In this document: positions 2,899-26,574 of the stretch, one piece after another | How the letters are laid out: the number at the start of each line of letters is the position of its first letter | How positions within the stretch are numbered: the first letter of the stretch is position 1 | Assembly: GCA_016180435.1 (NCBI GenBank) | Contig: JACPBG010000006.1 | Coordinates: 1-35,944 of the forward strand | DNA length: 35,944 nucleotides | Reading direction: 5' to 3' | Origin: Candidatus Sungiibacteriota bacterium | GTDB taxonomy: Bacteria > Patescibacteriota > Minisyncoccia > Sungbacterales > HO2-52-23 | Made by a program: the position numbers and the translations under genes | Notes under the pieces: generated by a model | Told to the model about the DNA's origin: nothing | The model's database searches: none | What the model saw: the letters and a program-made list of their open reading frames with translations, nothing else

Positions 2899-4230
2899 CT
2901 AAACCTCAAACTCGTCACCCAACAACGGCGCATCGGATTGAATCCCAAGGCGATCACGGATCTCCTGCATGAAATGAAGGGCTTGGGACGATTCGCCCTG
3001 TACCACAAAAACGCGCTTTAGGGTGTCGCGCATGGGCGAGACAAATGAAAAAAGCTGGGAACTGTCCGCGTGCGCGGAAAATCCGTTTATTTTCCGGATC
3101 TCCGCAGAGACCGCAACATCTTCCTTGAAAATTTTTACATTCCTGGCGCCGTCCAGCAACCGCCTGCCCAAAGACCCGGAGGCCTGATAGCCAACCACCA
3201 TCAAAATACTGTTTTTATCACGCAGATAGCGGCGCGCATGGTGCAAAATCCTGCCCCCCTGCATCATGCCGGATCCGGCAATCACAACTTTAGGCGGGGA
3301 TACATCGTTAATTGCTTTTGATTCCTCCACGCTTTCGGTGAATTTTAATTTCTTGAATTTAAAAAGGTTGGGGTGCTTTAAATAAAGATCTTGAATTCCC
3401 TGGCCGTAGTACGCCGGATACTCTTCATACACCGAAGTTACACGGCTGGCCAAAGGGGAATCCACAAAAACCGGCATTTCCGGAACGCGCTTAAAATTCA
3501 CCATTTCGTTGATTAGAAACAGCAGATCCTGGGTGCGCTCGGTAGCAAAAGCCGGAATCAGAAGAGTTCCGCGCCTGGACGCCACATCTTCCATGGCGCG
3601 TTCAAGCTGGAGTGTTCTTTCGGCCGGGGCCTCGTGTTCGCGGTTGCCGTAAGCCGACTCCACAACCAGATATTCCACGCCGCCGACTTTAGCAGGAGGG
3701 GGCAGAAGCACTGACGGAACATTACCAAGGTCTCCGGAAAAAAGAAATTTCTTGCCCTCGGCATTTATTTCAATAAGAGACGAACCCAAAATATGCCCGG
3801 CATCATGAAAAATTATTTCCGCGCCATTCAATGCAATTTTTTCTCCATAAGACACGGTTCTCCAAATGCGAAACGCCTTCTCCAGATCTTCTTCCGCATA
3901 GAGCCGGTTGTTTTGCCGCTCGGAAAGCGACAGCGCATCCTCCAAGAGATGGCGCGCCAAATCCTTGGTGGGCGGCGTGGAATAAATAACTCCGGAAAAC
4001 CCGTGCTTAACAAGCTTAGGAATCCTGCCCACATGATCCACATGGGCATGCGTCACAAACACCGCATTGATTGATTTTGAATCAAACTTAAAGGGCCGCT
4101 CGTTCATGTCCGAACAAACGTCGCACCCCTGAAACAAGCCGCAATCTATTAGAAATTTTTGCTCGGCAGCCTCAAGAAGATAACACGCTCCGGTCACCTC
4201 CCTGGCCCCGCCGTGGAATGACAATTTCAT
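2899..4230 (-). CDS. Beta-CASP metallo-beta-lactamase RNase, CPSF-like
   Basis: Protein of 443 aa with the zinc motif THAHVDH near residue 65, downstream metal-ligand motifs (FSGDLGN), a central beta-CASP region (LLIPAFATERTQ), and the C-terminal GFSAHAD. This architecture belongs to RNA-processing nucleases related to CPSF-73 and bacterial homologues, so it should cut or degrade RNA in the cytoplasm. The start at 4230 (MKLSFHGG) fits the family; a TATGAT box (4237-4242) ends 6 nt upstream, suggesting a leaderless transcript. Two tandem ATG codons make 4245 an alternative start. Confidence 0.85.
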   Translation of the reverse strand: MKLSFHGGAREVTGACYLLEAAEQKFLIDCGLFQGCDVCSDMNERPFKFDSKSINAVFVTHAHVDHVGRIPKLVKHGFSGVIYSTPPTKDLARHLLEDALSLSERQNNRLYAEEDLEKAFRIWRTVSYGEKIALNGAEIIFHDAGHILGSSLIEINAEGKKFLFSGDLGNVPSVLLPPPAKVGGVEYLVVESAYGNREHEAPAERTLQLERAMEDVASRRGTLLIPAFATERTQDLLFLINEMVNFKRVPEMPVFVDSPLASRVTSVYEEYPAYYGQGIQDLYLKHPNLFKFKKLKFTESVEESKAINDVSPPKVVIAGSGMMQGGRILHHARRYLRDKNSILMVVGYQASGSLGRRLLDGARNVKIFKEDVAVSAEIRKINGFSAHADSSQLFSFVSPMRDTLKRVFVVQGESSQALHFMQEIRDRLGIQSDAPLLGDEFEV

Positions 4231-4236
4231 ATCTAT

Positions 4237-4242
4237 ATCATA
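4237..4242 (-). promoter_or_regulatory. -10 box of the beta-CASP RNase gene
   Basis: TATGAT on the minus strand ends 6 nt before the chosen ATG. I see no clear -35 element. Confidence 0.45.
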
Positions 4243-4268
4243 CACTTTTTAGCCCGCGAAGCGGAAAC

Positions 4269-4413: not shown

Positions 4414-4644
4414 TTATTTTTTCAGGAATTTTATAAAATCATCTACCGTCATTTCCAAATCACTTATAATCCCGCGCAATATTTTCTTTTTTATATCCTT
4501 ACCGGCGTGAATTGGAACTGTAATCCTGCGGCCCCTTAAATCTTTATATTGGGCATGGCTGCCGACTTGATGGTGTTTGAAAAATCCGAGTTTCTCCAAA
4601 ACTCGGATTAATTCCTTTGTTTTTATAATGGGCAATTTGGACAT
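4414..4644 (-). CDS. hicA: HicA-type mRNA interferase toxin
   Basis: Protein of 76 aa with the HicA/YcfA double-stranded RNA-binding fold: TKELIRVLEKLGFF, then GSHAQYKD with the catalytic histidine (G-S-H), then ITVPIHAGKDIKKKILRGII, the conserved P-x-H-x-x-x-D/E-I segment. HicA cuts translated mRNAs when not bound by HicB. The start at 4644 (MSKLPI) leaves a 7-nt gap to the hicB stop; an upstream in-frame ATG at 4662 would overlap hicB by 11 nt. The order here is hicB first, the reverse of the E. coli operon but common elsewhere. Confidence 0.88.
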   Translation of the reverse strand: MSKLPIIKTKELIRVLEKLGFFKHHQVGSHAQYKDLRGRRITVPIHAGKDIKKKILRGIISDLEMTVDDFIKFLKK

Positions 4645-4651
4645 ACTGAAA

Positions 4652-4900
4652 TTAGCGTACAACGGCTAACTCCCGATCGGAAAAAGATTGAATAAACTCA
4701 AAAGCATCCGTTTCTCGCGGAACAGATTCCTTATCTTTCAAAAGTCCTTGCACATGGCATCGAATAGCTTCTTTAAGATTTTTTCTTACTTCCGGGATGG
4801 TATCGCCATATGTATGAACGCCCCTTAAAATCGGAACAAATCCATGAAATCCTTTGGGTTTTTCCGGTTCAATAATTACCCTGAAACTGTATAATTTCAT
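4652..4900 (-). CDS. hicB: HicB-type antitoxin
   Basis: Protein of 82 aa matching the HicB partial RNase H-like fold: opening strand MKLYSFRVIIEPE, then GFHGFVPILRGVHTYGDTIPE, and the helix VRKNLKEAIRCHVQG. It should neutralise the HicA encoded next. The C-terminus is short, with no clear added DNA-binding domain. The start at 4900 is supported by two overlapping TATGAT boxes, the nearer one (4907-4912) ending 6 nt before the ATG, which predicts a leaderless message. Confidence 0.85.
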   Translation of the reverse strand: MKLYSFRVIIEPEKPKGFHGFVPILRGVHTYGDTIPEVRKNLKEAIRCHVQGLLKDKESVPRETDAFEFIQSFSDRELAVVR

Positions 4901-14696: not shown

Positions 14697-15383
14697 ATGA
14701 CGAATGTAGCCGCAAAACATCTTGGACTCATTGAATTTATCAAATTCTTAAAATTGCAGGATTGGATGTGGAATAAAAGGGTACTGGGAGAAATTGGGGA
14801 TATAATTCTTTTTGCTGAACATCCACCGGTCATATCTCTGGGCAGTAGACGCCGGGAAGAACAAAACCGACACATCCTTGTCGCACCAGAATTTTTGCGT
14901 ACGCGTGGAATACCAGTTATACAAACCGAGCGCGGCGGGTCAGTAACAATTCACTGCCCCGGAATCCTCGGTTGCTACATAATTGCTGATATAAGCGGCC
15001 TTGAATTTTCTACCGAATTTATCTACCGTCTAGAATACTGGGTGCAAAAATCATTAGAGATGCTTGGTATTGACACAAAACGCCTACCGCCAGAATTTCG
15101 CAAAGTTGAGACCGCCAAATATGAAGGACTCTGGATCGGATGCAAAAAAATTGCCTCAGTCGGTATAAAAATAAGCCGCCACATTACACGCTTCGGCATC
15201 AATATAAACATTAGTCCCAAAGAGTACATGCTACGCATGGTAAACCCGTGCGGTATTGAAGAGTATGAATTTAGCTCGCTTGCCCAAGAGGGCTTTATGA
15301 TCAATACCAGAGACGTTATATCCGGCCTTGAAAATAACATGGACATTCTCTTTCGTAATATAAAGAAAAACCTCGCTCAATGA
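14697..15383 (+). CDS. lipB: Octanoyl-[acyl carrier protein]:protein transferase LipB
   Basis: Protein of about 228 aa that should attach octanoate to the lipoyl lysine of E2, the first step of lipoylation. The LipB order is clear: HLGLIEFIKFLKLQDWMWNK, LFAEHPPVISLGSRRRE, ERGGSVTIHCPGILGCYII, the catalytic-lysine segment CKKIASVGIKISR, and the catalytic cysteine in VNPCGI. In-frame ATGs at 14676 and 14526 exist, but homology begins at 14697. It faces the E2/E1 genes, whose product it would modify. No LipA is in the window, and many such reduced genomes lack fatty acid synthesis, so the octanoyl donor is unclear. Confidence 0.85.
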   Translation: MTNVAAKHLGLIEFIKFLKLQDWMWNKRVLGEIGDIILFAEHPPVISLGSRRREEQNRHILVAPEFLRTRGIPVIQTERGGSVTIHCPGILGCYIIADISGLEFSTEFIYRLEYWVQKSLEMLGIDTKRLPPEFRKVETAKYEGLWIGCKKIASVGIKISRHITRFGININISPKEYMLRMVNPCGIEEYEFSSLAQEGFMINTRDVISGLENNMDILFRNIKKNLAQ

Positions 15384-15397
15384 ACGAGGTATTTTTT
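15370..15397 (+). terminator. Terminator enclosing the lipB stop codon
   Basis: ACCTCG (15370-15375) pairs with CGAGGT (15385-15390), then ATTTTTT. The lipB TGA sits in the loop, so gene and terminator overlap; the E2 gene ends just beyond on the other strand. Confidence 0.8.
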
Positions 15398-16712
15398 AAG
15401 TAAGAAACGGGGTTGATTCGCGAATCTTAGTTTCGTAATTTACTCCCTCCACAAATTCTCTTACATTTGTGAGAAAACGCAGGGCTTGTGCGCCGTCATA
15501 AATCCTATGATCAAACCGTAGACCAAGATTGGCAAATCCATAAAATGGAGATCCAGCTTCTTCTTCAATCCGGCAAAATGTGCAAATAGCGCTCTGGCCA
15601 TGGACAATGATTGACTCTCCACCGTCGGCCCCCAAAACACCCGCATTATTGAAAGTAAATGTTCCTCCCTTCAAATCAGACGGCCTTAGCCCGCCACTCA
15701 GGGCCCTTGTGTATAAATCATGGAGGCGATAACAAATTTCGCGATATGTAATGCCATCCACATCCTGCAACACCGGAACCACCAGGCCCGACGGATGCTG
15801 ATATGCAATCCCGAGATTCACACCATCATACATCCTGACGCCCTCAAACCCAAGATGCTCGCATCCAAAACACGAATTGAGAATGCGTCCGTCTCCCTGC
15901 AAAGACAACAGTATTCCGTTAATTACAACCGCCTCAAGACGCAAAAATTTTTGTAGGCCGGCGAAATCCGAGTGATCCGCCAAATGTCGCTTAAGTTTTG
16001 CACGGACATGTAATATGTTGCGAAAATCGATTCTCACCGAACAACCAGCGTGCGGAATACAATCCCAGGACTGTTGCAAATTTTCGGCGATTCTACGACG
16101 AGTCATATCAAGCGGCTGATCTTTATAACATGATGATATTTCGGGCTGTACAGGCTCGCTTTTCTCCATAAAATCCGGGGCGTTTGTTTTTCCGACAGCT
16201 TTACGAACCTGCTCTATGGTAATAGTTCCACGCGGTCCGGACCCCGTAATTTTTGCCAGATCCGCGCCAAGCTCCCGAGCAATGCGTCTCACATAAGGAC
16301 CCGCTTTTACTGCGGAAGATTTTGGAGACACAACATGTGGCACCGGAATAATATTAATGTTTTCTTTACGAAAATCTTCTATTTGTCCCGGCGATGCCGC
16401 GATCATGGGTTCTTTTTCTATCCTATCCCGAACTTCCGACTGATCCTTTAATTCTGCTTCAATCCACCCGAAAATCGCATCCCACGAACCAACTTTATGA
16501 TCAGCAGGACGCATGATTTCTTCATTATCCTGGACATTGATTTCCGCAAGCACACCGGCATGCGGCGCATCAAGGTCTTCATCGCCTTTTAGCGATTCCA
16601 CATGAAGAATCCGTTCACCTTTCTCGAGCGTATCCCCAACTTTCTTATGCCATTTTATGACACATACGACATCAATATCCTTTTCTATCTGTCTCTTGAT
16701 CGAAAATCTCAT
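15396..16712 (-). CDS. Dihydrolipoamide acyltransferase, E2 of a 2-oxoacid dehydrogenase
   Basis: Protein of 438 aa with the full E2 layout. A lipoyl domain occupies residues 1-80, with the lipoyl lysine at K42 in the unusual setting ESLKGDED. A peripheral subunit-binding domain lies at about 137-173 (YVRRIARELGADLAKITGSG). The catalytic acyltransferase domain from about 198 has DHRIYDG (His402, Asp406) near the end. It transfers the acyl group from the E1-bound intermediate to CoA. It starts 9 nt after the E1 stop behind a strong GGAGGAG site, so the two are one operon. E3 is not in the window. Confidence 0.92.
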   Translation of the reverse strand: MRFSIKRQIEKDIDVVCVIKWHKKVGDTLEKGERILHVESLKGDEDLDAPHAGVLAEINVQDNEEIMRPADHKVGSWDAIFGWIEAELKDQSEVRDRIEKEPMIAASPGQIEDFRKENINIIPVPHVVSPKSSAVKAGPYVRRIARELGADLAKITGSGPRGTITIEQVRKAVGKTNAPDFMEKSEPVQPEISSCYKDQPLDMTRRRIAENLQQSWDCIPHAGCSVRIDFRNILHVRAKLKRHLADHSDFAGLQKFLRLEAVVINGILLSLQGDGRILNSCFGCEHLGFEGVRMYDGVNLGIAYQHPSGLVVPVLQDVDGITYREICYRLHDLYTRALSGGLRPSDLKGGTFTFNNAGVLGADGGESIIVHGQSAICTFCRIEEEAGSPFYGFANLGLRFDHRIYDGAQALRFLTNVREFVEGVNYETKIRESTPFLT

Positions 16713-16721
16713 ATCTCCTCC

Positions 16722-18932
16722 TTACCGATACGCCAAAAGTTCGCGGGCAACAGCCAGAATATCACCGTCCGACGGCAATATCCATTCTTCAAGCTTCGGA
16801 TGCTGGGCGAGCATACAGCGTTTGGCGCCCACGACGCCTATATACGGAGCCAGAAGATTTTCACCCGCCGCCTCCTGAATCATCTGGGCAATACTTCCGC
16901 CGACACCTCCGTACTTGGGCGCCTCATGCGCAATCAATACGCGCCGGGTTTTCACGGCGGATTCAACCAACAAATCCAGGTCAAGCGGACACAAAGACCT
17001 CAAATCAATCAATTCAAGACTGATTCCTTCCTGCGCCAAAATATCAACCGCAGGAAGTACCACCTGAAACCACATACGGGCGCCCCAAGAAATAATCGTA
17101 AGATCACTTCCTTCCTGGCGCAAAGCTGCGGATCCTATCGCGACTTCTCCATCTCCGACTTTACCGAATACGCTTGAGTATGCCCACAAATCTTCAAAAA
17201 AAAGAATGGGGGCGTCATCAAGGACGGATGCACGCAAAAGCGCTGCCGCATCATGCGGGGTTGAGGGATGTACCATTTTTAAACCGGGGGTATGGAAAAA
17301 TGCCGCCTCCAAACGCAACGAAGAATGATATTCACCCATTGATTTTCCGCCACCCGAAGGAAGCCGGAATAAGACATGCGGAGATACTCCGGTGGTCCAA
17401 AAAAACGAAGCAAGATAATCAATAATCTGCTGCATTGCACATGACGCAAATGGCAAATACTGAATCTCAGCAATCGGAATTAATCCTGCTATAGCGTGAC
17501 CGGTCGCAGCGCCCACAATGGCGATTTCCGCCAAAGGAGTGTTAAAGCACTGATCAACCTCAAGTTCAAGATCAGCTACGATGTCATGGGTAATGCCATA
17601 TACTCCGCCCCCGCGCGGTTCGCCTTCAATCAGGCATCCGCCTACATCTTCTCCAAAAATCCTTACTCGGCGATTATTTTTCAAAATATCGTGCAGGGTT
17701 TTACGAATAGCAACGCCATAAGAAAGCATATTTTTATGCTCTTCCGGAGATAGCTTTGTCCGCAGAGCATACTTGGCATCAAACGGCTCAACGCTCCGCT
17801 TAACTTTATTTATGGCTACATGAGGAAATATACGTAGCAGAGATTCGTCTGGTTCCGGATCTGGTCCGGTCCTCACCGCTTCATACGCCGCATCAACTGC
17901 CTGCTTTTCCTCCTCGGCAATAATGTTAAGTTCCGCTTCGGAAATTTCCATCACATCACAGGCAAACATCTTACCCGGCTCACGATCATGAATGGCGCGA
18001 ACCGCGTCAACGCTCCGCAATCCCAATAATTCTTCACGAAATAACCGCACTGGGTCCAAAGCGCCCCATTCAATAAAGTCAAAAATGTCTACACAATTTG
18101 CCTTACGCGATTCGTTATGCTCGGCCATACGGAACGTGTCACACTCCAAAATAAAAGGCGCTCGTGCCAGATTATAAGCAGAAAGATACTTGGTGTTATT
18201 AGCAAGCGTACGCGCTCGTTCTATAAGGCGCACGGAGTAATTATATACAGTAACGATGTCATTACCGTTGGCGATGTAAGCTCCCTCAATATTATATCCG
18301 CGCGCGATATCGACAAGGTTTTGCGCGGCGGATTGTTCTATAAACGGCGTATCGGTGGCAATCCGGTTATTGTCAATAATAAACCCCATGGGTAAATTTC
18401 TTACGGCCGCATAATTGAGAACCTCATGAAATGTTCCTTGCCGACTAGCCCCGTCTCCGCAGAAACAAAGCACAACCGGCAATTTGCCTTCCTGCTTCTC
18501 CAGCTTAAAAATATATGTCAGAGCATCAGCAATTCCGGCACCCGTTGGCCAATTCGAGATCATGTGGCTTTTGAATTTCAAAATATGCTTTTTAATCAGG
18601 CCGTAGTGAATGTTACCGTCTCGTCCACGCGATGGAGAATCAGCCTTACACAAATGGTTTGCCAGATCTTCTTCGGGCGTTACTCCGAAATGTACCAGTG
18701 CCCCCTTCGACCGATGCCCGGGGACGAGCCAGTCCCGCGAAGGATTACAGGCAAATGACGCGCCCAACGAAACCGCTTCCTCACCCAAACTAAGCAAAGC
18801 GACTGTGGGAATATGCGAATCGCCGCTATCCTTAATATCATAGCGAATTTTCAGTTCAATAAACCTTGATCGGCACATTTCGCGCCACATAAGAAGTTTT
18901 TCTTCCTTGGAAAGATGTGCGAAATAACTCAT
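16722..18932 (-). CDS. 2-oxoacid dehydrogenase E1, fused alpha and beta subunits
   Basis: Protein of 736 aa that joins both E1 chains. The alpha part (about 1-370) carries GEEAVSLGASFAC, GHRSKGAL and the thiamine diphosphate motif from GDGASRQG (159-166) to the DNN at about 187-189. The beta part (about 400-736) has VRIFGEDVGG, FNTPLAEIAIVGAATGHA and IAHEAPKYGGVGG. It decarboxylates a 2-oxoacid and reductively acylates the E2 lipoyl group. The fused form is best known for branched-chain or pyruvate-type enzymes; the substrate cannot be told from sequence. Start at 18932 is supported by GAGGG 7 nt upstream; the frame is open further upstream. Confidence 0.92.
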   Translation of the reverse strand: MSYFAHLSKEEKLLMWREMCRSRFIELKIRYDIKDSGDSHIPTVALLSLGEEAVSLGASFACNPSRDWLVPGHRSKGALVHFGVTPEEDLANHLCKADSPSRGRDGNIHYGLIKKHILKFKSHMISNWPTGAGIADALTYIFKLEKQEGKLPVVLCFCGDGASRQGTFHEVLNYAAVRNLPMGFIIDNNRIATDTPFIEQSAAQNLVDIARGYNIEGAYIANGNDIVTVYNYSVRLIERARTLANNTKYLSAYNLARAPFILECDTFRMAEHNESRKANCVDIFDFIEWGALDPVRLFREELLGLRSVDAVRAIHDREPGKMFACDVMEISEAELNIIAEEEKQAVDAAYEAVRTGPDPEPDESLLRIFPHVAINKVKRSVEPFDAKYALRTKLSPEEHKNMLSYGVAIRKTLHDILKNNRRVRIFGEDVGGCLIEGEPRGGGVYGITHDIVADLELEVDQCFNTPLAEIAIVGAATGHAIAGLIPIAEIQYLPFASCAMQQIIDYLASFFWTTGVSPHVLFRLPSGGGKSMGEYHSSLRLEAAFFHTPGLKMVHPSTPHDAAALLRASVLDDAPILFFEDLWAYSSVFGKVGDGEVAIGSAALRQEGSDLTIISWGARMWFQVVLPAVDILAQEGISLELIDLRSLCPLDLDLLVESAVKTRRVLIAHEAPKYGGVGGSIAQMIQEAAGENLLAPYIGVVGAKRCMLAQHPKLEEWILPSDGDILAVARELLAYR

Positions 18933-19013
18933 AAAACGACCCTCGTTTCTCTGAAATGTAAAGGTACCTTTCTGCCTTAGTAATAATCCCCCAGCCACAC
19001 AAGGTCAAGTACT

Positions 19014-19039
19014 AAAAAATCCGCGGAGAATCGCGGATT
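19014..19039 (-). terminator. Terminator of the thioesterase gene
   Basis: AATCCGCG (19018-19025) pairs with CGCGGATT (19032-19039), followed on the minus strand by TTTTTT. Confidence 0.8.
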
Positions 19040-19042
19040 AAA

Positions 19043-19597
19043 TTACGGATACGCGAGGCCGAAAAAATGCAAAACTTTTATAACCAGCCATTCGTTGGTC
19101 GGATATATCAAGTCCTCGAGTCCTCTTCGGGTTAACGGAACGGCAATGGAAAACGTGGTGCCGGTTACTAACTCCTTTTCACCTAAAAGGATTTTGGATT
19201 CGGTAAATGTTTTTCTGCCAGAAACCTCGATGAGCCGAGTATAGACCGCAAGCGGACCTTGGTCGGTCGGTACCGGATGCTTCAATTCCACATGGAAATT
19301 GCGCGACACATACCACCAATCAATCGGCAAGTCCCCGAAACGTCTTCCTCCTCTCCGATAACGATCGGCTATGGCAAGCCACACGCCGTTGCAATCAATC
19401 AAAGACCCCGATGTTCCTCCGTGTAAAACGTTCTCCGAGGCCGCGGAAAATCCGCGCCGAGGATGCCACATACATATCGTTTCCTCCATTTTCTCGTCGC
19501 GCCAAAAACTTTTCATGCGCATTCCCTTTAAATTGGAGGGTCCGCAACCGTGGCAAAGATTTCCCGGGAAATAATCCTGAAACGCTTTTCCCTGCAT
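19043..19597 (-). CDS. PaaI-like hotdog-fold acyl-CoA thioesterase
   Basis: Protein of 184 aa. NLCHGCGPSNLKGMRMKSFW is the typical opening of PaaI-type thioesterases, followed by VLHGGTSGSLIDCNGVWLA, the hotdog helix with its H-G-G active-site region, then FHVELKHPVPTDQGPL and ESKILLGEKELVTGTTFSI strands. It should hydrolyse acyl-CoA thioesters and could free CoA or control acyl-CoA levels made by neighbouring enzymes. It lies upstream of E1 on the same strand but ends at a terminator, so it is probably transcribed separately. No clear ribosome-binding site is seen at 19597. Confidence 0.8.
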   Translation of the reverse strand: MQGKAFQDYFPGNLCHGCGPSNLKGMRMKSFWRDEKMEETICMWHPRRGFSAASENVLHGGTSGSLIDCNGVWLAIADRYRRGGRRFGDLPIDWWYVSRNFHVELKHPVPTDQGPLAVYTRLIEVSGRKTFTESKILLGEKELVTGTTFSIAVPLTRRGLEDLIYPTNEWLVIKVLHFFGLAYP

Positions 19598-19674
19598 TTT
19601 AAAACCAGCTTAAAATTCGGTACTGATGAAAGTGTAAACTATGCAGCACCCGGATGTCAAAAAAGTACAGCGGA

Positions 19675-19703
19675 TTGCAAAAATATTTTTTGCATGGTAC
19701 TAA
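19675..19703 (+). promoter_or_regulatory. Promoter of the acyl-CoA synthetase gene
   Basis: TTGCAA (19675-19680), 17-nt spacer, TACTAA (19698-19703), giving a leader of about 28 nt with AAAGGGG before the ATG. Confidence 0.6.
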
Positions 19704-19737
19704 ATAAACAAGATCTGATCTTTGAAAGGGGTTTAAA

Positions 19738-21714
19738 ATGGAAAAATTCACATGGGAACCGTACGGCGATTACCTTAACAATTCCCGTGTCCGCCAATTC
19801 ATGAACAAATACCATATCCAAACCTGGCAAGAACTTATTGCACGCTCAACGCAAGAGATCGAATGGTTCTGGCCCGCGGCCATGGATTTTTTAGGGGTTG
19901 AATGGATGAAAACCCCAGATGCGGTTTATGACGACACCGAAGGATTCCCCTGGACCAAATGGTTCATCGGCGGAAAAACAAATATCACACTGAACTGTCT
20001 TGACCGCCATATCAGATTCTGGTGGCACGCCGAGAAAAAAATCGCAGTCGCTTTTGAACATGACGACGGCGCGGTCGAGCGAATCAGCTACACAGAATTA
20101 TGTCGATTGGTGGTCCGCATCGCGCGGGCCATGCGAAGAAGCGGGGTGGGAAAAGGCGACCGGATCGCAATGTGCATGTCAATCTCGATTGAGGCCGTGG
20201 CCATAATGCTGGCCGCATTTAAAATCGGCGCAGTATGCATGCAGCCGGCATCGCGCATATCTCCGGATGAGATGGTTGAATCCTTGCTTCCCGGATCACC
20301 CAAGCTTCTTTTCATGCACGACGGATACCAACGCGGAGGAAAAACAATCAAGCTGGACAACATATATCATGCCATCCGGAGCCGGGTTCCTTCGCTCCAA
20401 GACATCATTGTGGTTGAAAATTATCTGAAAAGTTTTGAATTTGAAAATTCAAGGGGATACACTCCGTGGGAATTTTTCTTGAAGGAAACTTCTAAGGGGC
20501 GTTTCCCCAAAACCGAGGCGTGCGCTGCCGAAGATCCTGCGCTTATTCTTTATTCTTCCGGCACCACCGGCAAATCAAAAATAATCGTGCACACGCACGG
20601 CGGAATCCTGGCACAAGTTCCGAAAGAAGTAGGGTTTGCTTTTGACTGCCAAGAGAATGATATATTTTTCTGGTTCACGAACATCGGTTGGATGATGGCT
20701 CCCTGGGAAATTATCGGCGCGCTGTTTTTCGGCGCAACCATTGTACTTTATGAAGGCACCCATCTTTATCCGAATCCGCACCGGATGTTTGAACTTATTG
20801 AAAAGCATAAAATCTCAATTTTCGGATTCACTCCGTCAGCCATGACCGATCTTGCCGCATCCGGCGAAGACTTCAGCCGATATGATCTTTCTTCTTTACG
20901 TATTCTAGGTTCTACCGGCAAAGTGCTTCATCCCAAAACTTGGGAATGGTATTCCCAGACATTTGGAAGATCACGGCTCCCGATCATGAATATATCCGGA
21001 GGCACTGAAATCATCGGATGTTTGGTATCACCCTTGCCGATTATGCCGCAAAATCCCGGAACCGTAGGCGGACCCGGACTTGGCATGGATGTTGACATAG
21101 TGGATGAAGAAAGCAATCCGGTTCGCGGATCTCCGGGACAATTGGTCTGTAGAAAACCCGCGCCATCTATGACGCGAGGATTTCTGCGGGATAACGGCCT
21201 CTATCTTAAAACCTACTTTCCGCGGGGACAAAACTTTTGGGTCCACGGCGACATGGCGGAAATCGGAGAAGACGGGCTTTGGTACATGCGCGGTCGCGCG
21301 GATGATTTGATTGTCAAAGGCGGCATAAAATTTGACCCCTCCAAAATTGAATCAGCTCTTCTTAAATTCCCCGGACCGCCGCATATCCGTGAAGCCACGG
21401 TTATCGGCGTACCGAATGAGCGTGGCGACCAAAAAATTGTCTGTTTCGCAGTAGTTGCGGAACATGACGCACTGGATCAAACCGCAACCGGAGCATTGAA
21501 ACAGTGGGTAAAGAGAGCTTACGAACCATTTGCCCAACCGGATGAAATCCATGCGATTTCCGGACTTCCTACCAACTTGGCGGCTAAAATTCCGCTAGAA
21601 ATCCTGCGTCTGGCATACACCGGAGAAAACATTCCGGATCTTTCAAAAATCGCTAACCCGCAATATCTGGAAGAAATTCGAGCCATCGGTGAGCGGATGC
21701 GACAGAAAAACTAA
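19738..21714 (+). CDS. AMP-forming acyl-CoA synthetase, acetyl/acetoacetyl-CoA synthetase-like
   Basis: Protein of 658 aa of the adenylate-forming family. It activates a carboxylic acid with ATP and joins it to CoA. Motifs in order are LYSSGTTGKSKIIVHTHGG (phosphate loop), NIGWMMAPWEIIG, MNISGGTEIIG, VHGDMAEIGEDGLWYMRGRADD (the hinge aspartate) and, near the end, NLAAKIPLEILR with the catalytic lysine. The long N-terminus and overall size fit the acetyl-CoA or acetoacetyl-CoA synthetase branch. AAAGGGG lies 7 nt before the ATG. The acid is unknown; acetate, propionate or acetoacetate would all feed the adjacent citrate synthase. Confidence 0.9.
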   Translation: MEKFTWEPYGDYLNNSRVRQFMNKYHIQTWQELIARSTQEIEWFWPAAMDFLGVEWMKTPDAVYDDTEGFPWTKWFIGGKTNITLNCLDRHIRFWWHAEKKIAVAFEHDDGAVERISYTELCRLVVRIARAMRRSGVGKGDRIAMCMSISIEAVAIMLAAFKIGAVCMQPASRISPDEMVESLLPGSPKLLFMHDGYQRGGKTIKLDNIYHAIRSRVPSLQDIIVVENYLKSFEFENSRGYTPWEFFLKETSKGRFPKTEACAAEDPALILYSSGTTGKSKIIVHTHGGILAQVPKEVGFAFDCQENDIFFWFTNIGWMMAPWEIIGALFFGATIVLYEGTHLYPNPHRMFELIEKHKISIFGFTPSAMTDLAASGEDFSRYDLSSLRILGSTGKVLHPKTWEWYSQTFGRSRLPIMNISGGTEIIGCLVSPLPIMPQNPGTVGGPGLGMDVDIVDEESNPVRGSPGQLVCRKPAPSMTRGFLRDNGLYLKTYFPRGQNFWVHGDMAEIGEDGLWYMRGRADDLIVKGGIKFDPSKIESALLKFPGPPHIREATVIGVPNERGDQKIVCFAVVAEHDALDQTATGALKQWVKRAYEPFAQPDEIHAISGLPTNLAAKIPLEILRLAYTGENIPDLSKIANPQYLEEIRAIGERMRQKN

Positions 21715-21739
21715 CCGCAGAAATTCTGCGGTTTTTTAA
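21713..21739 (+). terminator. Terminator of the acyl-CoA synthetase gene
   Basis: AACCGCAG (21713-21720) pairs with CTGCGGTT (21726-21733), then TTTT. The stem begins in the stop codon. Confidence 0.85.
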
Positions 21740-21751
21740 TGTTTTATGCCC

Positions 21752-21780
21752 TTGTAAAATCACCGATCTTATATTATGAT
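21752..21780 (+). promoter_or_regulatory. Promoter of the citrate synthase gene
   Basis: TTGTAA (21752-21757), 17-nt spacer, TATGAT (21775-21780). Transcription should begin near 21787, so ATGs at 21776 and 21779 cannot be starts. Confidence 0.65.
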
Positions 21781-21799
21781 GCTGTTGGGTCTTTTGAAA

Positions 21800-23041
21800 A
21801 TGGAACGAGTTATGAATATCATTCATCCGGCCGAAAACGACAAAGTCATTGATCCGGGCCTCCGGCATACGGGATATGCGCCAACCGGAAAATGCCTTAT
21901 GCGGGACGGGAAACTTTACTATTGCGGATATGACGTGGCGGATCTTACGGCCCATTCTTCATTTGAGGAGTGCGCTTATCTTTTGTTGCACGGCGAACTT
22001 CCCAACGAAAAGGAGCTATGCGGATTTCTTGCGCAACTCCGGGGACTTACTATTACGCGTCTTAACGGATTTATTCCGCCCCGCAGAAACTGCGGTGAAT
22101 TCCGCCGCCTCTTAACACTCTTCGGACCTTCCTGGATGCATACCAACACAATGGACACACTCCGCACCATGGTGTCATTCCTCGGAACGGATGCGTTTAA
22201 AGAGCCGGCAACGGATAATTTGATCTTGCATAACGCCCTGACACTTATGGCAACCATGCCGCTTTTTGTCGCGGCCATTGCCCACCATAAAAAATACGGA
22301 AATCTTAGAAAATTTCCGTGGCACATAACTCCGCCCAAACCCTATTCCGTTGCCAAAATGTTTCTTACGCTTCTTCACGGCCAAGAACCCCCCGAAGAAG
22401 AATGGAAAGCGCTGGACGCCTCGCTTATCCTTTACCTTGAACACGAGGATAACGCGAGCACCCATACGGCGCATGTGGTTACCGGCACAAACTCCGATAT
22501 TTTTTCGGCAAATATTGCCGGGCTTTGCGCACTCAAAGGCAATCTCCACGGCGGGGCGAATGAATACGCCATGGAACTTTTGGAAGAAATCGGGGACGCG
22601 TCCCGCGCGCGGGAAGTGCTTGAAAAAAAACTTGCCGCCGGAGAACTAATCATGGGATTCGGGCATGCGGTGTATAAAAACATTCCGGATCCGCGCTGCA
22701 CTGTAATGAAACCGATAGTAGAGCGCCTGGCGCAAACCCATGCCCAAAAAAATCTATACGAGCTTGCTTTAGGCGTTGAAGAACAGGTATTCAAACTTCT
22801 GGGCAAATCGCCCAATATTGATTTCTGGACCGCGCCTTTATATAAATTTCTCGGCATTCCGGCAAAACTTGCCACCCCGGTATTTACCATGTCGCGTACT
22901 GTGGGATGGTCCGCACATCATATGGAATACCGTAAACTTACGGCAGACAAACGGGGCATGCCCGAACTTATCCGGCCGCGATCTTCCGAATACGTCGGAC
23001 CCGAACCGCGCTCCTATATTCCAATCAGCCAGCGGAGTTAA
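21800..23041 (+). CDS. Citrate synthase family protein (citrate or 2-methylcitrate synthase)
   Basis: Protein of about 413 aa that condenses acetyl-CoA or propionyl-CoA with oxaloacetate. Active-site blocks are all present: LEHEDNASTHTAHVV, GNLHGGANEYAME (first histidine), IMGFGHAVYKNIPDPR (second histidine), NIDFWTAPLYKFLGIP (catalytic aspartate) and RTVGWSAHHMEY. It is of the short bacterial/methylcitrate-like type rather than the long E. coli type. The start is 21800 or 21812, both after the predicted transcription start. No other tricarboxylic-acid-cycle gene is in the window, so what becomes of the product is open. Confidence 0.92.
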   Translation: MERVMNIIHPAENDKVIDPGLRHTGYAPTGKCLMRDGKLYYCGYDVADLTAHSSFEECAYLLLHGELPNEKELCGFLAQLRGLTITRLNGFIPPRRNCGEFRRLLTLFGPSWMHTNTMDTLRTMVSFLGTDAFKEPATDNLILHNALTLMATMPLFVAAIAHHKKYGNLRKFPWHITPPKPYSVAKMFLTLLHGQEPPEEEWKALDASLILYLEHEDNASTHTAHVVTGTNSDIFSANIAGLCALKGNLHGGANEYAMELLEEIGDASRAREVLEKKLAAGELIMGFGHAVYKNIPDPRCTVMKPIVERLAQTHAQKNLYELALGVEEQVFKLLGKSPNIDFWTAPLYKFLGIPAKLATPVFTMSRTVGWSAHHMEYRKLTADKRGMPELIRPRSSEYVGPEPRSYIPISQRS

Positions 23042-23051
23042 TTACAAAAAT

Positions 23052-23076
23052 ATCCACGATTTTTCGTGGATTTTAA
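23052..23076. terminator. Terminator of the citrate synthase gene
   Basis: ATCCACGA (23052-23059) pairs with TCGTGGAT (23064-23071), followed by TTT on the plus strand and flanked by an A-run that would serve the facing minus-strand gene. Confidence 0.75.
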
Positions 23077-23099
23077 ATTAGAATAGATGGCCAGAAACA

Positions 23100-24269
23100 T
23101 TACACGCGTACATGCTTAATAAATTCTAAAACTTGTTTAGCGATAATAAGACGCTGGATTTCAGACGGGCCTTCATAAATAGGAATGGCCAATGCGTCCA
23201 GCAAAAGACGGGAAGATTGGGAATGCAGCAAATAGCTCAAGGCTCCGCATTTTTGGAAATAAAAAAGCGTGGATGCCAGAGCGGCTTCTGCGCCAGCAAG
23301 TTTTGCCAAAGATGATGCCTCGACAAACCGAGGATTAGCATGAACTTCAAAATCCGCAGCCGTGTAACAAAGCAGTCGCGCGGCCTGTATCTGAAGATGC
23401 AAATTGGCAATTTCCGGCCGGCTTTGATCGAATACGGATTTGCCGAAGGCCTTATGGTCGGAAGTGTGAAAAACCATTTCGTTGAACGCCCGCTGGGCAA
23501 GTTCCACAGCCTGCATTCCGATAAACACGCGGGAGCGCTGAAAGGTCTCGTCAAAAACCTTCCATCCGCCGTGTAATTTACCCAAAATATTTTCATCCCG
23601 CGTCTCATAGTCCGTAAGCGTAAACTGGCATAAAGGCGCTCCGTGCTGTCCGATCTTTTCCTCAACGCGGTCAAGCGTATATCCCGGCATCCCATCCCCG
23701 ACATCAATCAAAAACGCGGTTGTCCCGGGATGCCCGGAGCGGCGTTTGGCGGTACGAGTCGAAACAACCGCGGCTTTGGCAACAGATGCGCTGGTAATAA
23801 AACATTTCGTGCCGTTCAAAATCCATTTATCGCCGCGCCTTTCCGCTTTTAACCTGATATTTTTGGCGTCGGATCCTACGCCCGGCTCGGTATTTGCCAC
23901 GCATCCAAAAAGTTCTCCTTTGACCGATCGCGGAAGATATTTTTCTTTCTGATCCTCGCTACCAAATCGTCTTACAGCGCTATTAAAAAGTGTTTCCTGC
24001 GCCAGGACGCAAAGAGAGAGGGCACTGGAGGCAAAAGCAATCGGACCAAACGCAATAAGCGCATCCAAAAAATTGAGTCCGGCGCCGCCATAACGCTCAC
24101 GCACCATCATCCCCAAATACCCCTGATGTGCCGCGGCGCGCATAAAATCATAAGGGAATTCCTTGGTTTGATACGCATGCTCGATCCATGCCGCAACTTT
24201 TGCATCCTTAATGAAATCAACGGAGTTATTGCGCAGCATTTCTTGCTCATCAGACAGGACGAAATCCAT
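23100..24269 (-). CDS. Acyl-CoA dehydrogenase
   Basis: Protein of 389 aa, the usual length. FAD-dependent enzymes of this family introduce the alpha-beta double bond into acyl-CoA. Visible blocks are FVLSDEQEMLRN at the start, GCVANTEPGVGSDAKNI (a variant of the C-x-x-T-E-P-x-x-G-S-D signature), WILNGTKCFITSASVA, and YEGPSEIQRLIIAKQ, whose glutamate after tyrosine fits the catalytic base position. It needs an electron acceptor such as electron-transfer flavoprotein, which is not encoded here. It is followed by a terminator shared with, and then the gene for, a short-chain dehydrogenase on the far side. Confidence 0.92.
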   Translation of the reverse strand: MDFVLSDEQEMLRNNSVDFIKDAKVAAWIEHAYQTKEFPYDFMRAAAHQGYLGMMVRERYGGAGLNFLDALIAFGPIAFASSALSLCVLAQETLFNSAVRRFGSEDQKEKYLPRSVKGELFGCVANTEPGVGSDAKNIRLKAERRGDKWILNGTKCFITSASVAKAAVVSTRTAKRRSGHPGTTAFLIDVGDGMPGYTLDRVEEKIGQHGAPLCQFTLTDYETRDENILGKLHGGWKVFDETFQRSRVFIGMQAVELAQRAFNEMVFHTSDHKAFGKSVFDQSRPEIANLHLQIQAARLLCYTAADFEVHANPRFVEASSLAKLAGAEAALASTLFYFQKCGALSYLLHSQSSRLLLDALAIPIYEGPSEIQRLIIAKQVLEFIKHVRV

Positions 24270-24349
24270 GGCTTATACCCAATGTAAAAATAGCTGCCTT
24301 CATGGTTGCACAGTGATAAAAAAAGTCAAGGGCATAATTATACAAAAAT

Positions 24350-24376
24350 AATCCACGGAATTCCGTGGATTTTTTC
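24350..24376. terminator. Bidirectional terminator, perfect palindrome
   Basis: ATCCACGGAA/TTCCGTGGAT at 24351-24370 has no loop bases in DNA; a T-run follows on the plus strand and TTATTTTTG on the minus. It lies between the dehydrogenase starts and the SDR stop. Confidence 0.75.
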
Positions 24377-24393
24377 TTACAATTAACATGAGG

Positions 24394-25173
24394 TTACGAT
24401 GCGCTCCATCCGCCGTCAACCGGAATTATAGCGCCGTTCAGATATTGCGGAGCGTCGCAAGCCAGCCATTTTATGGCAGCCGCAATCTCTTCCGGTCGGC
24501 CGTAACGCTTAAACGGAACGCGCGCCTTAACCTTTTCAAAAAACGCGGGCGGAATTGCCTTGATCATGGGTGTATTGGTTGCCCCGGGAGCTATTGCGTT
24601 AACAGTGATATCAAGCGACAATTCGTCTTTATTGTATGGTATCTCAAGCGCCAAAGTTTTAGTGATGCTCTCTACCCCGGCTTTGGATGCGGCGTACGCA
24701 AGATTTCCCGCGTCCCCGCGATGCCCGGCAATTGACGAAGTATTTATGACTCTGCCATATCCTTGCGCGCGCATATGCGGCAATACGGCATAACACCAGT
24801 TAAGCGTCCCGCCCAAATTCACCCTAATTACTTCCCACATCTGATCAAGGGGAGTTTTTACGAACGGCCCGAATTTCTGCGGCGGTATCCCGGCAAGATT
24901 CACCAAAATATCAATCCGGCCGTGAATATCAATAATATATTCGACCTTTTTCAGAACTTCAGCAGCATCTGCAACATTGTTTAACGAATACCCGTGGGTA
25001 GCCCCCAATCGCGAGAGCGACCTCGTAAATTCAAGCAATTCATGTCCCTTTTCAGGACGATCCACAAGCACCAAATCAATGCCGGGCACTTCTGCAAACA
25101 ACCTGGCGGTTTCCCGTCCTATGCCCCCGTTGGCTCCGGTAATTACTGCAACATATCCTGGGCCGGTCTTCAT
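24394..25173 (-). CDS. Short-chain dehydrogenase/reductase, FabG/3-hydroxyacyl type
   Basis: Protein of 259 aa. TGANGGIG near residue 12 is the NAD(P)-binding loop, NLAGI the structural motif, NTSSIAGH carries the catalytic serine, YAASKAG the tyrosine and lysine, and the C-terminus is PVDGGWSAS. It probably interconverts a 3-oxoacyl and 3-hydroxyacyl thioester, or a related alcohol and ketone, which fits beside acyl-CoA dehydrogenase. D-x-R-P after the second strand (LVLVDRP) hints at NAD rather than NADP. GGAG 5 nt before the ATG at 25173 sets the start; the frame runs on to 25215. Confidence 0.88.
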   Translation of the reverse strand: MKTGPGYVAVITGANGGIGRETARLFAEVPGIDLVLVDRPEKGHELLEFTRSLSRLGATHGYSLNNVADAAEVLKKVEYIIDIHGRIDILVNLAGIPPQKFGPFVKTPLDQMWEVIRVNLGGTLNWCYAVLPHMRAQGYGRVINTSSIAGHRGDAGNLAYAASKAGVESITKTLALEIPYNKDELSLDITVNAIAPGATNTPMIKAIPPAFFEKVKARVPFKRYGRPEEIAAAIKWLACDAPQYLNGAIIPVDGGWSAS

Positions 25174-25230
25174 CTTCACTCCGAATTTCTCAAATATCCA
25201 AAATGAGCATAACAAACCGAGAAAAATACG

Positions 25231-26574
25231 TCAACCTATCGAATTTTTTAGTTCTTCGCGCACAACTTCCCTATCATCCCATGCAGTTTTAGTCCCGTTT
25301 GGACCCATGATCCAAGGTTCGGCGCCTTTTCCGGTTATAACCACGGTATCTCCGGATTTTGCTAATTTTAGTGCTTCGCGTATCGCCTCTCTGCGGTCAA
25401 GAATTTTTTTATTGTTTGCCGTTTGAGGTCTGTTTGGAATTTCGGATTTAGAATTTTGAATTTGCGGAAATCCGGAAGCGATTTCGTCCAAAATTGCTTC
25501 TGGATTTTCGTCATATGGATCTTCGTTGGTCAAAATAATGCAATCGCAAAATTCCGCAGCAATTCTGCCGAATTCCGGCCTTTTCCATTTATCCCGCCCG
25601 CCTCCGGCCGCGCCCAATACACATATCAGTTTAGTTACTGATAACTGGTTACTGGTTCCGCAATCTTTAAGAAATGTATATACGTTTCTCAAAGATTGCG
25701 GCGTATGCGCATAATCCACCACAACCGCAAACGGCTCTTTTTGAACGAACTCCATACGCCCCGGAACTCCGGAAAAATTCTCAAGCGCAACGGATATCTT
25801 TTCTAAAGAAATATGCTCCAGAATCCCGACCGTGACGGCGACAAGAATATTATACAGGTTAAACTCACCCGGCAATTTTACAGCAAAATCTTGTCCGTTA
25901 ATTTCCATAAAAACCCCGCCCTTTCCGGTTTTGACGTCCCGAATGGCATAAATTTTGTCAGAAAACTTGATTTCATTTCTCCCGTAAAATATTTTCTTGG
26001 CTCCGGTCGAGGCAGAAAATCTGCCAGCGAACGGATCGCCGCGATTTATAATGGCGGCCGCGTCTTTGGGAAGACGCCAGAATAAATCCAATTTTGCCCG
26101 AAGGTACCGTTCAAAACTTCCGTGCGACTCAATATGTTCGCGCTCAATATTGGTCATAACCGCCGCAGAAAAATTAATAAAGCGGTGCCGGAATTGCTTG
26201 ATCCCCTCGGACGTAACCTCCAGCACCGCGTAACGGCATCCGGATTTTACGGCCTGGCGCAAAAATTTCTGCACAAAAAAACGCCCGGGCATGGTCATTT
26301 TTTTATCGTTTGGCATAACAACGTCTCCGGTTTTAAAGCGGAGCGATGAAATAGAGGCGGTTTTACCGCCGCCCGATTGCAGGATCTCGTGGATCAATTC
26401 CACAACCGTGGTTTTGCCTTTGGTGCCGGTAACTCCGATAACAATAAAATCCCGCGACGGGAATCGGAACCAAAGCGCGGCCAAAAACGCGAGGATGAAA
26501 TGATATGGGGGTTGTAGACGAATAAAAATCGGGTGTGGAATTAGCTTTTTTACAAGATAAATGGCAAACGACAA
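25231..26574 (-). CDS. murE: MurE-like Mur ligase with in-frame repeat insertions
   Basis: Protein of about 447 aa. Mur ligases add an amino acid to UDP-MurNAc-peptide with ATP. VTGTKGKTTVVE is the ATP loop, VLEVTSEGI and MTNIEREHIESHG are central Mur motifs, VVVDYAHTPQSLR and TNEDPYDENP mark the MurE/C-terminal domain and ITGKGAEPWI its end. The usual DNPR residue set for diaminopimelate is absent, so the added amino acid is uncertain. It starts at TTG (26574) after a hydrophobic N-terminus. Two stretches of 7-bp repeats are read in frame: 25628-25655 (residues TSNQLSVTK) and 25436-25463 (residues QIQNSKSEIP). Confidence 0.83.
   Translation of the reverse strand: MSFAIYLVKKLIPHPIFIRLQPPYHFILAFLAALWFRFPSRDFIVIGVTGTKGKTTVVELIHEILQSGGGKTASISSLRFKTGDVVMPNDKKMTMPGRFFVQKFLRQAVKSGCRYAVLEVTSEGIKQFRHRFINFSAAVMTNIEREHIESHGSFERYLRAKLDLFWRLPKDAAAIINRGDPFAGRFSASTGAKKIFYGRNEIKFSDKIYAIRDVKTGKGGVFMEINGQDFAVKLPGEFNLYNILVAVTVGILEHISLEKISVALENFSGVPGRMEFVQKEPFAVVVDYAHTPQSLRNVYTFLKDCGTSNQLSVTKLICVLGAAGGGRDKWKRPEFGRIAAEFCDCIILTNEDPYDENPEAILDEIASGFPQIQNSKSEIPNRPQTANNKKILDRREAIREALKLAKSGDTVVITGKGAEPWIMGPNGTKTAWDDREVVREELKNSIG

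Follow-up and report, generated by a model that had tools for sequence, protein, structure and literature searches.

A resident E1-E2-LipB and acyl-CoA gene module beside murE in a Parcubacterium, with a probable role in branched-chain 2-oxoacid oxidation

The branched-chain 2-oxoacid dehydrogenase complex (BCKDH), a member of the 2-oxoacid dehydrogenase complex (OADHC) family, consists of E1alpha and E1beta chains, an E2 made up of a lipoyl, a subunit-binding and an acyltransferase domain, and E3. The same E1 and E2 components, with a lipoylation enzyme adjacent to them, are encoded in the DNA analysed here (the window), which is the entire 35,944-bp contig C10 (JACPBG010000006.1) of a Candidatus Sungiibacteriota genome (GCA_016180435.1; G000). 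That genome measures 1,054,955 bp (11 contigs; completeness 97.5%, contamination 1.3%). In contrast to the known complex, the E1 chains are fused, neither E3 nor lipoyl synthase was found, and the genes are paired with a thioesterase (TE), an acyl-CoA dehydrogenase (ACD) and a short-chain dehydrogenase/reductase (SDR) beside murE; the module would act in the manner of a branched-chain 2-oxoacid dehydrogenase, save that no E3 was found in the searched part of the genome. This part amounts to about 93% of the sequence, namely all but contigs C2, C3 and C5 and 72 kb of C4 (about 75 kb in total), with open reading frames (ORFs) called by a simple script of our own and absences resting on hidden Markov model or E. 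coli-query searches.

Among Parcubacteria, 'Ca. Parcunitrobacter nitroensis' was described as having beta-oxidation, methylcitrate enzymes, an AMP-forming acyl-CoA synthetase, electron transfer flavoprotein (ETF) and a ferredoxin-linked oxidoreductase (PMC5220378). It shares with the present organism beta-oxidation, a methylcitrate-type synthase and the synthetase, whereas its 2-oxoacid:ferredoxin oxidoreductase, co-located ETF and PrpB/PrpD have no counterpart in the searched part of G000; it also has a respiratory chain, for which G000 was searched in part. A freshwater survey recorded no beta-oxidation in any group of the Candidate Phyla Radiation (PMC9166423). Beta-oxidation in Parcubacteria is already known, while searches of a partial literature collection turned up no description of an E1-E2-LipB module that depends on lipoate in these bacteria.

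An earlier note, made from the window alone, had recognised eight adjacent genes with catalytic motifs, and all eight are indeed found there as intact ORFs with catalytic residues in place, seven of them far above Pfam cut-offs and all with solved homologues. The lipB-like octanoyl/lipoyl transferase gene (14697..15383, + strand; ATG start, frame open from 14526; PF21948, 92 bits; TIGR00214, 96.7 bits, above cut-off) encodes the RGG..H loop and, in alignment with E. coli LipB, the Lys and PCG-Cys dyad typical of the LipB-LipA lipoate assembly pathway. The E2 dihydrolipoyl acyltransferase (15396..16712, - strand) comprises a lipoyl domain (PF00364), an E3/E1-binding domain (PF02817) and a catalytic core (PF00198), with the lipoyl Lys (ESLKGD) and the HxxxDG motif (DHRIYDG) conserved, and is adjoined by the fused E1alpha-E1beta 2-oxoacid dehydrogenase (16722..18998, - strand, ATG at 18932 possible; PF00676, PF02779, PF02780), which has the GDG..NN motif and solved 2-oxo acid dehydrogenase, BCKDH and pyruvate dehydrogenase (PDH) E1 homologues. 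The PaaI-like hotdog TE (19043..19597, - strand) keeps the HGG motif but gave no Pfam or NCBIfam match, being recognised only via the solved thioesterase-superfamily protein 2prx (E 2e-14). On the + strand lie an AMP-forming acyl-CoA synthetase of the acetyl/acetoacetyl-CoA synthetase type (ACS; 19738..21714; PF00501, 227 bits; NF002937, 442 bits, under the cut-off of 639) and a citrate/2-methylcitrate synthase (CS; 21776..23041; PF00285, 316 bits). The ACS has Gly at the aligned position of Trp414 in acetate-specific Acs, an exchange known from Acs mutants to admit larger acids, so that its substrate is likely larger than acetate. The CS, whose His/His/Asp residues match those of PrpC and GltA, falls on the PrpC side of the family, scoring 204 bits to PrpC versus 128 to GltA and grouping in a tree with prpD-linked synthases (support 87/92). 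The last two genes, on the - strand, encode a short-chain type ACD recognised by Pfam (23100..24269; catalytic Glu in place, YEG; about 150-184 bits to structures of SCAD, SBCAD and IVD) and the SDR (24394..25215, ATG at 25173 possible; PF13561/PF00106).

The locus is a resident module of a Parcubacterium and not a fresh insertion. For comparison we used 93 sampled genomes of the class, which, where metagenome-assembled, may be incomplete; one of them, G001, belongs to the same genus but is only 72% complete. On the right, MurE (25231..26574, - strand; TIGR01085 above cut-off), which anchors the locus, and on the left a beta-CASP metallo-hydrolase (2899..4245, - strand) both have their best matches in G001 (74% and 79% identity, respectively), on one contig and with order and orientation kept. 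The G001 order, in Pfam terms, is TrpTyr permease, SLOG, MBL, RNaseH-like, WYL, DUF192-S9, PHP, Archease, [E1-like, POR gamma-delta, POR alpha, POR beta], TE, ACD, SDR, MurE, FemAB, RuvA and UvrB, and the window repeats it except for LipB, E2 and E1 at the bracket and an extra ACS-CS pair; the ACD and SDR are 72% and 67% identical to their G001 counterparts, and the TE homologue there likewise adjoins them. E1 also adjoins murE in G018, G079 and G009, where E2 accompanies it, and in G005 and G019, where E2 is missing. In the E1 tree G000 stands with Liptonbacteria, Sungbacteria, Kaiserbacteria and Azambacteria homologues (support 100/100), these Parcubacteria records being its nearest named relatives, which agrees with the Patescibacteria-like genome proposed earlier; the homologues of G001, G005 and G019 make up a clade of their own.

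The earlier note's suggestion that the genes are an exceptional island acquired by transfer finds no support, given a murE neighbourhood conserved across families, the placement of E1 and an ordinary base composition, with GC and tetranucleotides matching the genome; neither composition nor tree supports a recent transfer. Nor is the gene set exceptional for the group, considering that E2 was found in 14 and citrate synthase in 15 (9 full-length) of the 93 genomes and that beta-oxidation had already been published for a Parcubacterium. That C10 might be an assembly chimera or contaminant could be suspected from its being a single 36 kb contig ending in repeats common to C6, C9 and C4, but the chimeric junction named earlier as a possible refutation is opposed by synteny with G001 on both flanks, TE-ACD-SDR inside included. 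Together with the matching composition and the lack of a second copy of RuvA, UvrB, rpsT and Fpg elsewhere in the searched genome, this leaves an assembly artefact extremely improbable.

At the site of E1-E2-LipB, G001 carries a divergent E1 without E2 and a three-subunit 2-oxoacid:ferredoxin oxidoreductase (POR-type), although, in so incomplete a genome, the absence of E2 is known with less confidence than the make-up of the locus. No such oxidoreductase was found in the searched part of G000. POR/VOR enzymes perform chemistry equivalent to that of E1-E2 but are ferredoxin-linked, so lipoate-dependent and ferredoxin-dependent 2-oxoacid oxidisers replace each other in place within one genus. 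The POR-type genes beside TE-ACD-SDR in G001 tie these three genes to 2-oxoacid oxidation, and their retention around two unrelated oxidisers is our best evidence that the genes work together. POR-type triplets, by sequence resemblance only, adjoin murE in G015 and G017 as well. In archaea lipoylation tracks aerobiosis (PMC3904984), and by analogy the exchange seen here may follow oxygen exposure. Fused E1-type proteins in genomes where no E2 was found (G001, G005, G019, G029 and G058, including a single-contig genome) are possibly stand-alone thiamine pyrophosphate enzymes.

The neighbours of related modules point to branched-chain 2-oxoacids. In a Kaiserbacteria record (L249), an E1 belonging to the same clade (support 100/100; 45% identity) is joined to E2, a 2-hydroxyacid dehydrogenase, ACD, an SDR (47% identical to that of the window), 3-hydroxy-3-methylglutaryl-CoA (HMG-CoA) lyase (351 bits, cut-off 246), carboxyltransferase, enoyl-CoA hydratase (ECH) and thiolase, which by gene content would be a leucine-degradation set. 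It thereby resembles the liu-type leucine/isovalerate cluster, from which G000 differs in having no HMG-CoA lyase or carboxyltransferase matches in its searched part, so that isoleucine or short acids would fit better. Elsewhere, E1-E2-LipB is found with methylmalonyl-CoA mutase, ACD (49% identical), TE and thiolases in G084, and in the order PrpC-PrpD-PrpB-E1-E2-LipB-MeaB/B12-ACD in G062. G000 itself encodes an IlvE-like aminotransferase, two ELFV (Glu/Leu-type) dehydrogenases and LivK/H/M/G homologues, together with proline catabolism enzymes and an aromatic amino acid lyase, which also speak for amino acid catabolism. The earlier note had suggested possible dependence on genes elsewhere or on a host; ECH, 3-hydroxyacyl-CoA dehydrogenase (HCDH) and thiolase are present on C9 and C7, whereas lpd, lipA, etfAB and aconitase were not found in the searched part. 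The ACD of C10 and the fusions on C9 complete the beta-oxidation set, the latter (C9:25598-30488, L052) being a thiolase-HCDH and an ECH-ACD protein that have a patatin-like gene and a Liv-type transporter as neighbours; among the 93 genomes the ECH-ACD fusion has a full-length match only in G001 (68%). This gene set appears to fit isoleucine best, and branched-chain 2-oxoacids are the most likely candidate substrates of E1-E2.

We therefore lean towards a resident catabolic module oxidising 2-oxoacids, most likely branched-chain ones, of which the genes, motifs, native context and co-occurrence are observed and the substrates, direction, coupling and LipB donor inferred. An IlvE-type aminotransferase would make the branched-chain 2-oxoacids, which fused E1 and E2 would decarboxylate oxidatively to acyl-CoA, the lipoyl lysine of E2 being loaded by LipB at the expense of an acyl-CoA, either octanoyl-CoA or scavenged lipoyl-CoA. 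The ACD would desaturate the acyl-CoA, and the C9 proteins, with the SDR, would complete its oxidation. Isoleucine would thus yield acetyl-CoA and propionyl-CoA, the latter being condensed with oxaloacetate by the PrpC-like synthase, while the synthetase would activate matching free acids and the TE would free CoA. The route from a 2-oxoacid or free acid to acyl-CoA and its oxidation, as first proposed, is supported by the gene set, and it would place amino-acid oxidation, probably of branched-chain type, in bacteria that are mostly portrayed as fermenting sugars and lacking beta-oxidation. A citrate-cycle use of the synthase, also suggested earlier, is unlikely because the partner enzymes were not found: E. 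coli queries returned the synthase alone in the searched genome, with no homologue of aconitase, isocitrate dehydrogenase, 2-oxoglutarate dehydrogenase, succinate dehydrogenase, Suc, Mdh or fumarase.

Several results weigh against this catabolic role. E3, LipA and ETF, already noted as lying outside the window, gave no match in the searched genome either (PF02852, TIGR00510 and PF01012, respectively). As for substitutes of LipA, only two CxxxCxxC proteins above 200 aa were seen, with no BioB match, which argues against LipS1/LipS2; unlike in LipB-LipA assembly, the lipoyl donor must therefore be scavenged or unusual. E. coli queries disclosed neither PrpB/PrpD, leaving no visible outlet for 2-methylcitrate, nor AckA or an ADP-forming acyl-CoA synthetase (the Pta query was partial only), leaving no visible energy yield. 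HMG-CoA lyase and carboxyltransferase of the leucine route gave no match either. The branched-chain substrate, moreover, is read from gene neighbours only. With E3, ETF and lipoyl synthase all missing from the searched genome, its gene content does not explain how dihydrolipoamide and reduced ACD would be oxidised again.

The gap is not peculiar to G000. Among sampled genomes of the class, which may be incompletely covered too, PF02852 was present in 2 of 14 E2-bearing and 2 of 13 other genomes, LipA was above cut-off in none of 27 and ETF occurred in 2 of 33, and the pattern recurs in genomes rated 98-100% complete. A LipB homologue stands beside E1 in 11 of 16 E1 loci, and neighbourhood clustering of these 16 loci brought out no recurrent unfamiliar neighbour as a possible replacement E3. 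Four Pyr_redox_2 proteins of G000 lack the dimerisation domain and are of reductase, thioredoxin reductase (TrxR) and NDH-2 types; among the Pyr_redox_2 proteins a redox-active disulfide (CxxC) is visible in the TrxR-like ORF (C8:112963-113934) alone. E. coli LipB accepts octanoyl-CoA (C8-CoA) (PMC9307952), a donor that suits G000, since AcpP, FabD and FabF were not found in its searched part. It is conceivable, if rather doubtful, that Parcubacteria hold a recurrent E1-E2-LipB system without E3 and lipoyl synthase, in which LipB loads scavenged lipoate carried as a CoA thioester and a different partner, for example of TrxR type, reoxidises dihydrolipoamide and the ACD flavin. That E3, lipoyl synthase and ETF are missing time and again implies either unrecognised partner proteins or a measurable host dependence of such modules. 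A single predicted c-type cytochrome (CxxCH; C8:168355-168696) beside a geranylgeranyl-reductase-like flavoprotein is a possible electron carrier.

Host dependence or partial decay of E1-E2-LipB, with lipoate and reoxidation supplied by a host or the proteins reduced to a mere 2-oxoacid decarboxylase/acyltransferase, would account for E3 missing in 12 of the 14 E2-bearing genomes, LipA missing in all those sampled and the five genomes with fused E1s lacking E2. Even so, the lipoyl Lys, HxxxDG and the LipB dyad are mostly kept across families (exceptions include the G074 LipB), arguing for selection, and E3 cannot easily act across cells, so we give this explanation only a minor chance. An ordinary PDH-type complex giving acetyl-CoA, with unrelated acyl-CoA genes as neighbours, seems about equally unlikely: the top model scores of E1beta and E2 are to those named PDH, E2 is also closest to PDH structures, and no POR for pyruvate was found in the searched part of G000, but no PDH-named model reaches its cut-off, BCKDH E1alpha structures outscore those of PDH, and clusters of relatives hold leucine or propionyl-CoA genes.

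Still less probable, in our judgement, is that the acyl-CoA genes run in a reductive or anabolic direction, either reversing beta-oxidation or providing acyl-CoA for lipids, in which case the TE would release fatty acids and a FabH-like enzyme would use branched primers. The TE within the locus, a FabH-like ORF at C7:183772 and the lack of a visible catabolic ATP step speak for it; the failure to find AcpP, FabD and FabF in the searched genome, several amino-acid-catabolic genes in G000 and the retention of a 2-oxoacid-oxidising step through the swap speak against it, and there is no ETF for reduction either. Branched-chain 2-oxoacid catabolism by a resident module is thus somewhat favoured.

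Other genes of amino acid metabolism were observed in G000. At C7:186010-188907 proline dehydrogenase is directly followed by pyrroline-5-carboxylate (aldehyde) dehydrogenase, adjoined by a DDAH-like hydrolase and a FabH-like condensing enzyme, and at C7:221806-226321 an MIO-family aromatic amino acid lyase, an acyl-CoA ligase and a thiolase stand in series, so that this Parcubacterium may have a route of the cinnamate/urocanate type. ATP synthase alpha/beta genes are present in two sets (C1:137462-143722 and C7:124968-129724), the C1 set being divergent and near an NDH-2-like gene. The same short repeat stands at starts or ends of contigs C10, C9 and C6, and the ends of C10 and C4 share 42 bp, which suggests assembly breaks at interspersed repeats. 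Finally, two small two-gene pairs of the window (4414-4900 and 2333-2856), with paralogues elsewhere in the genome, resemble by look only toxin-antitoxin pairs of HicAB and RelBE type.

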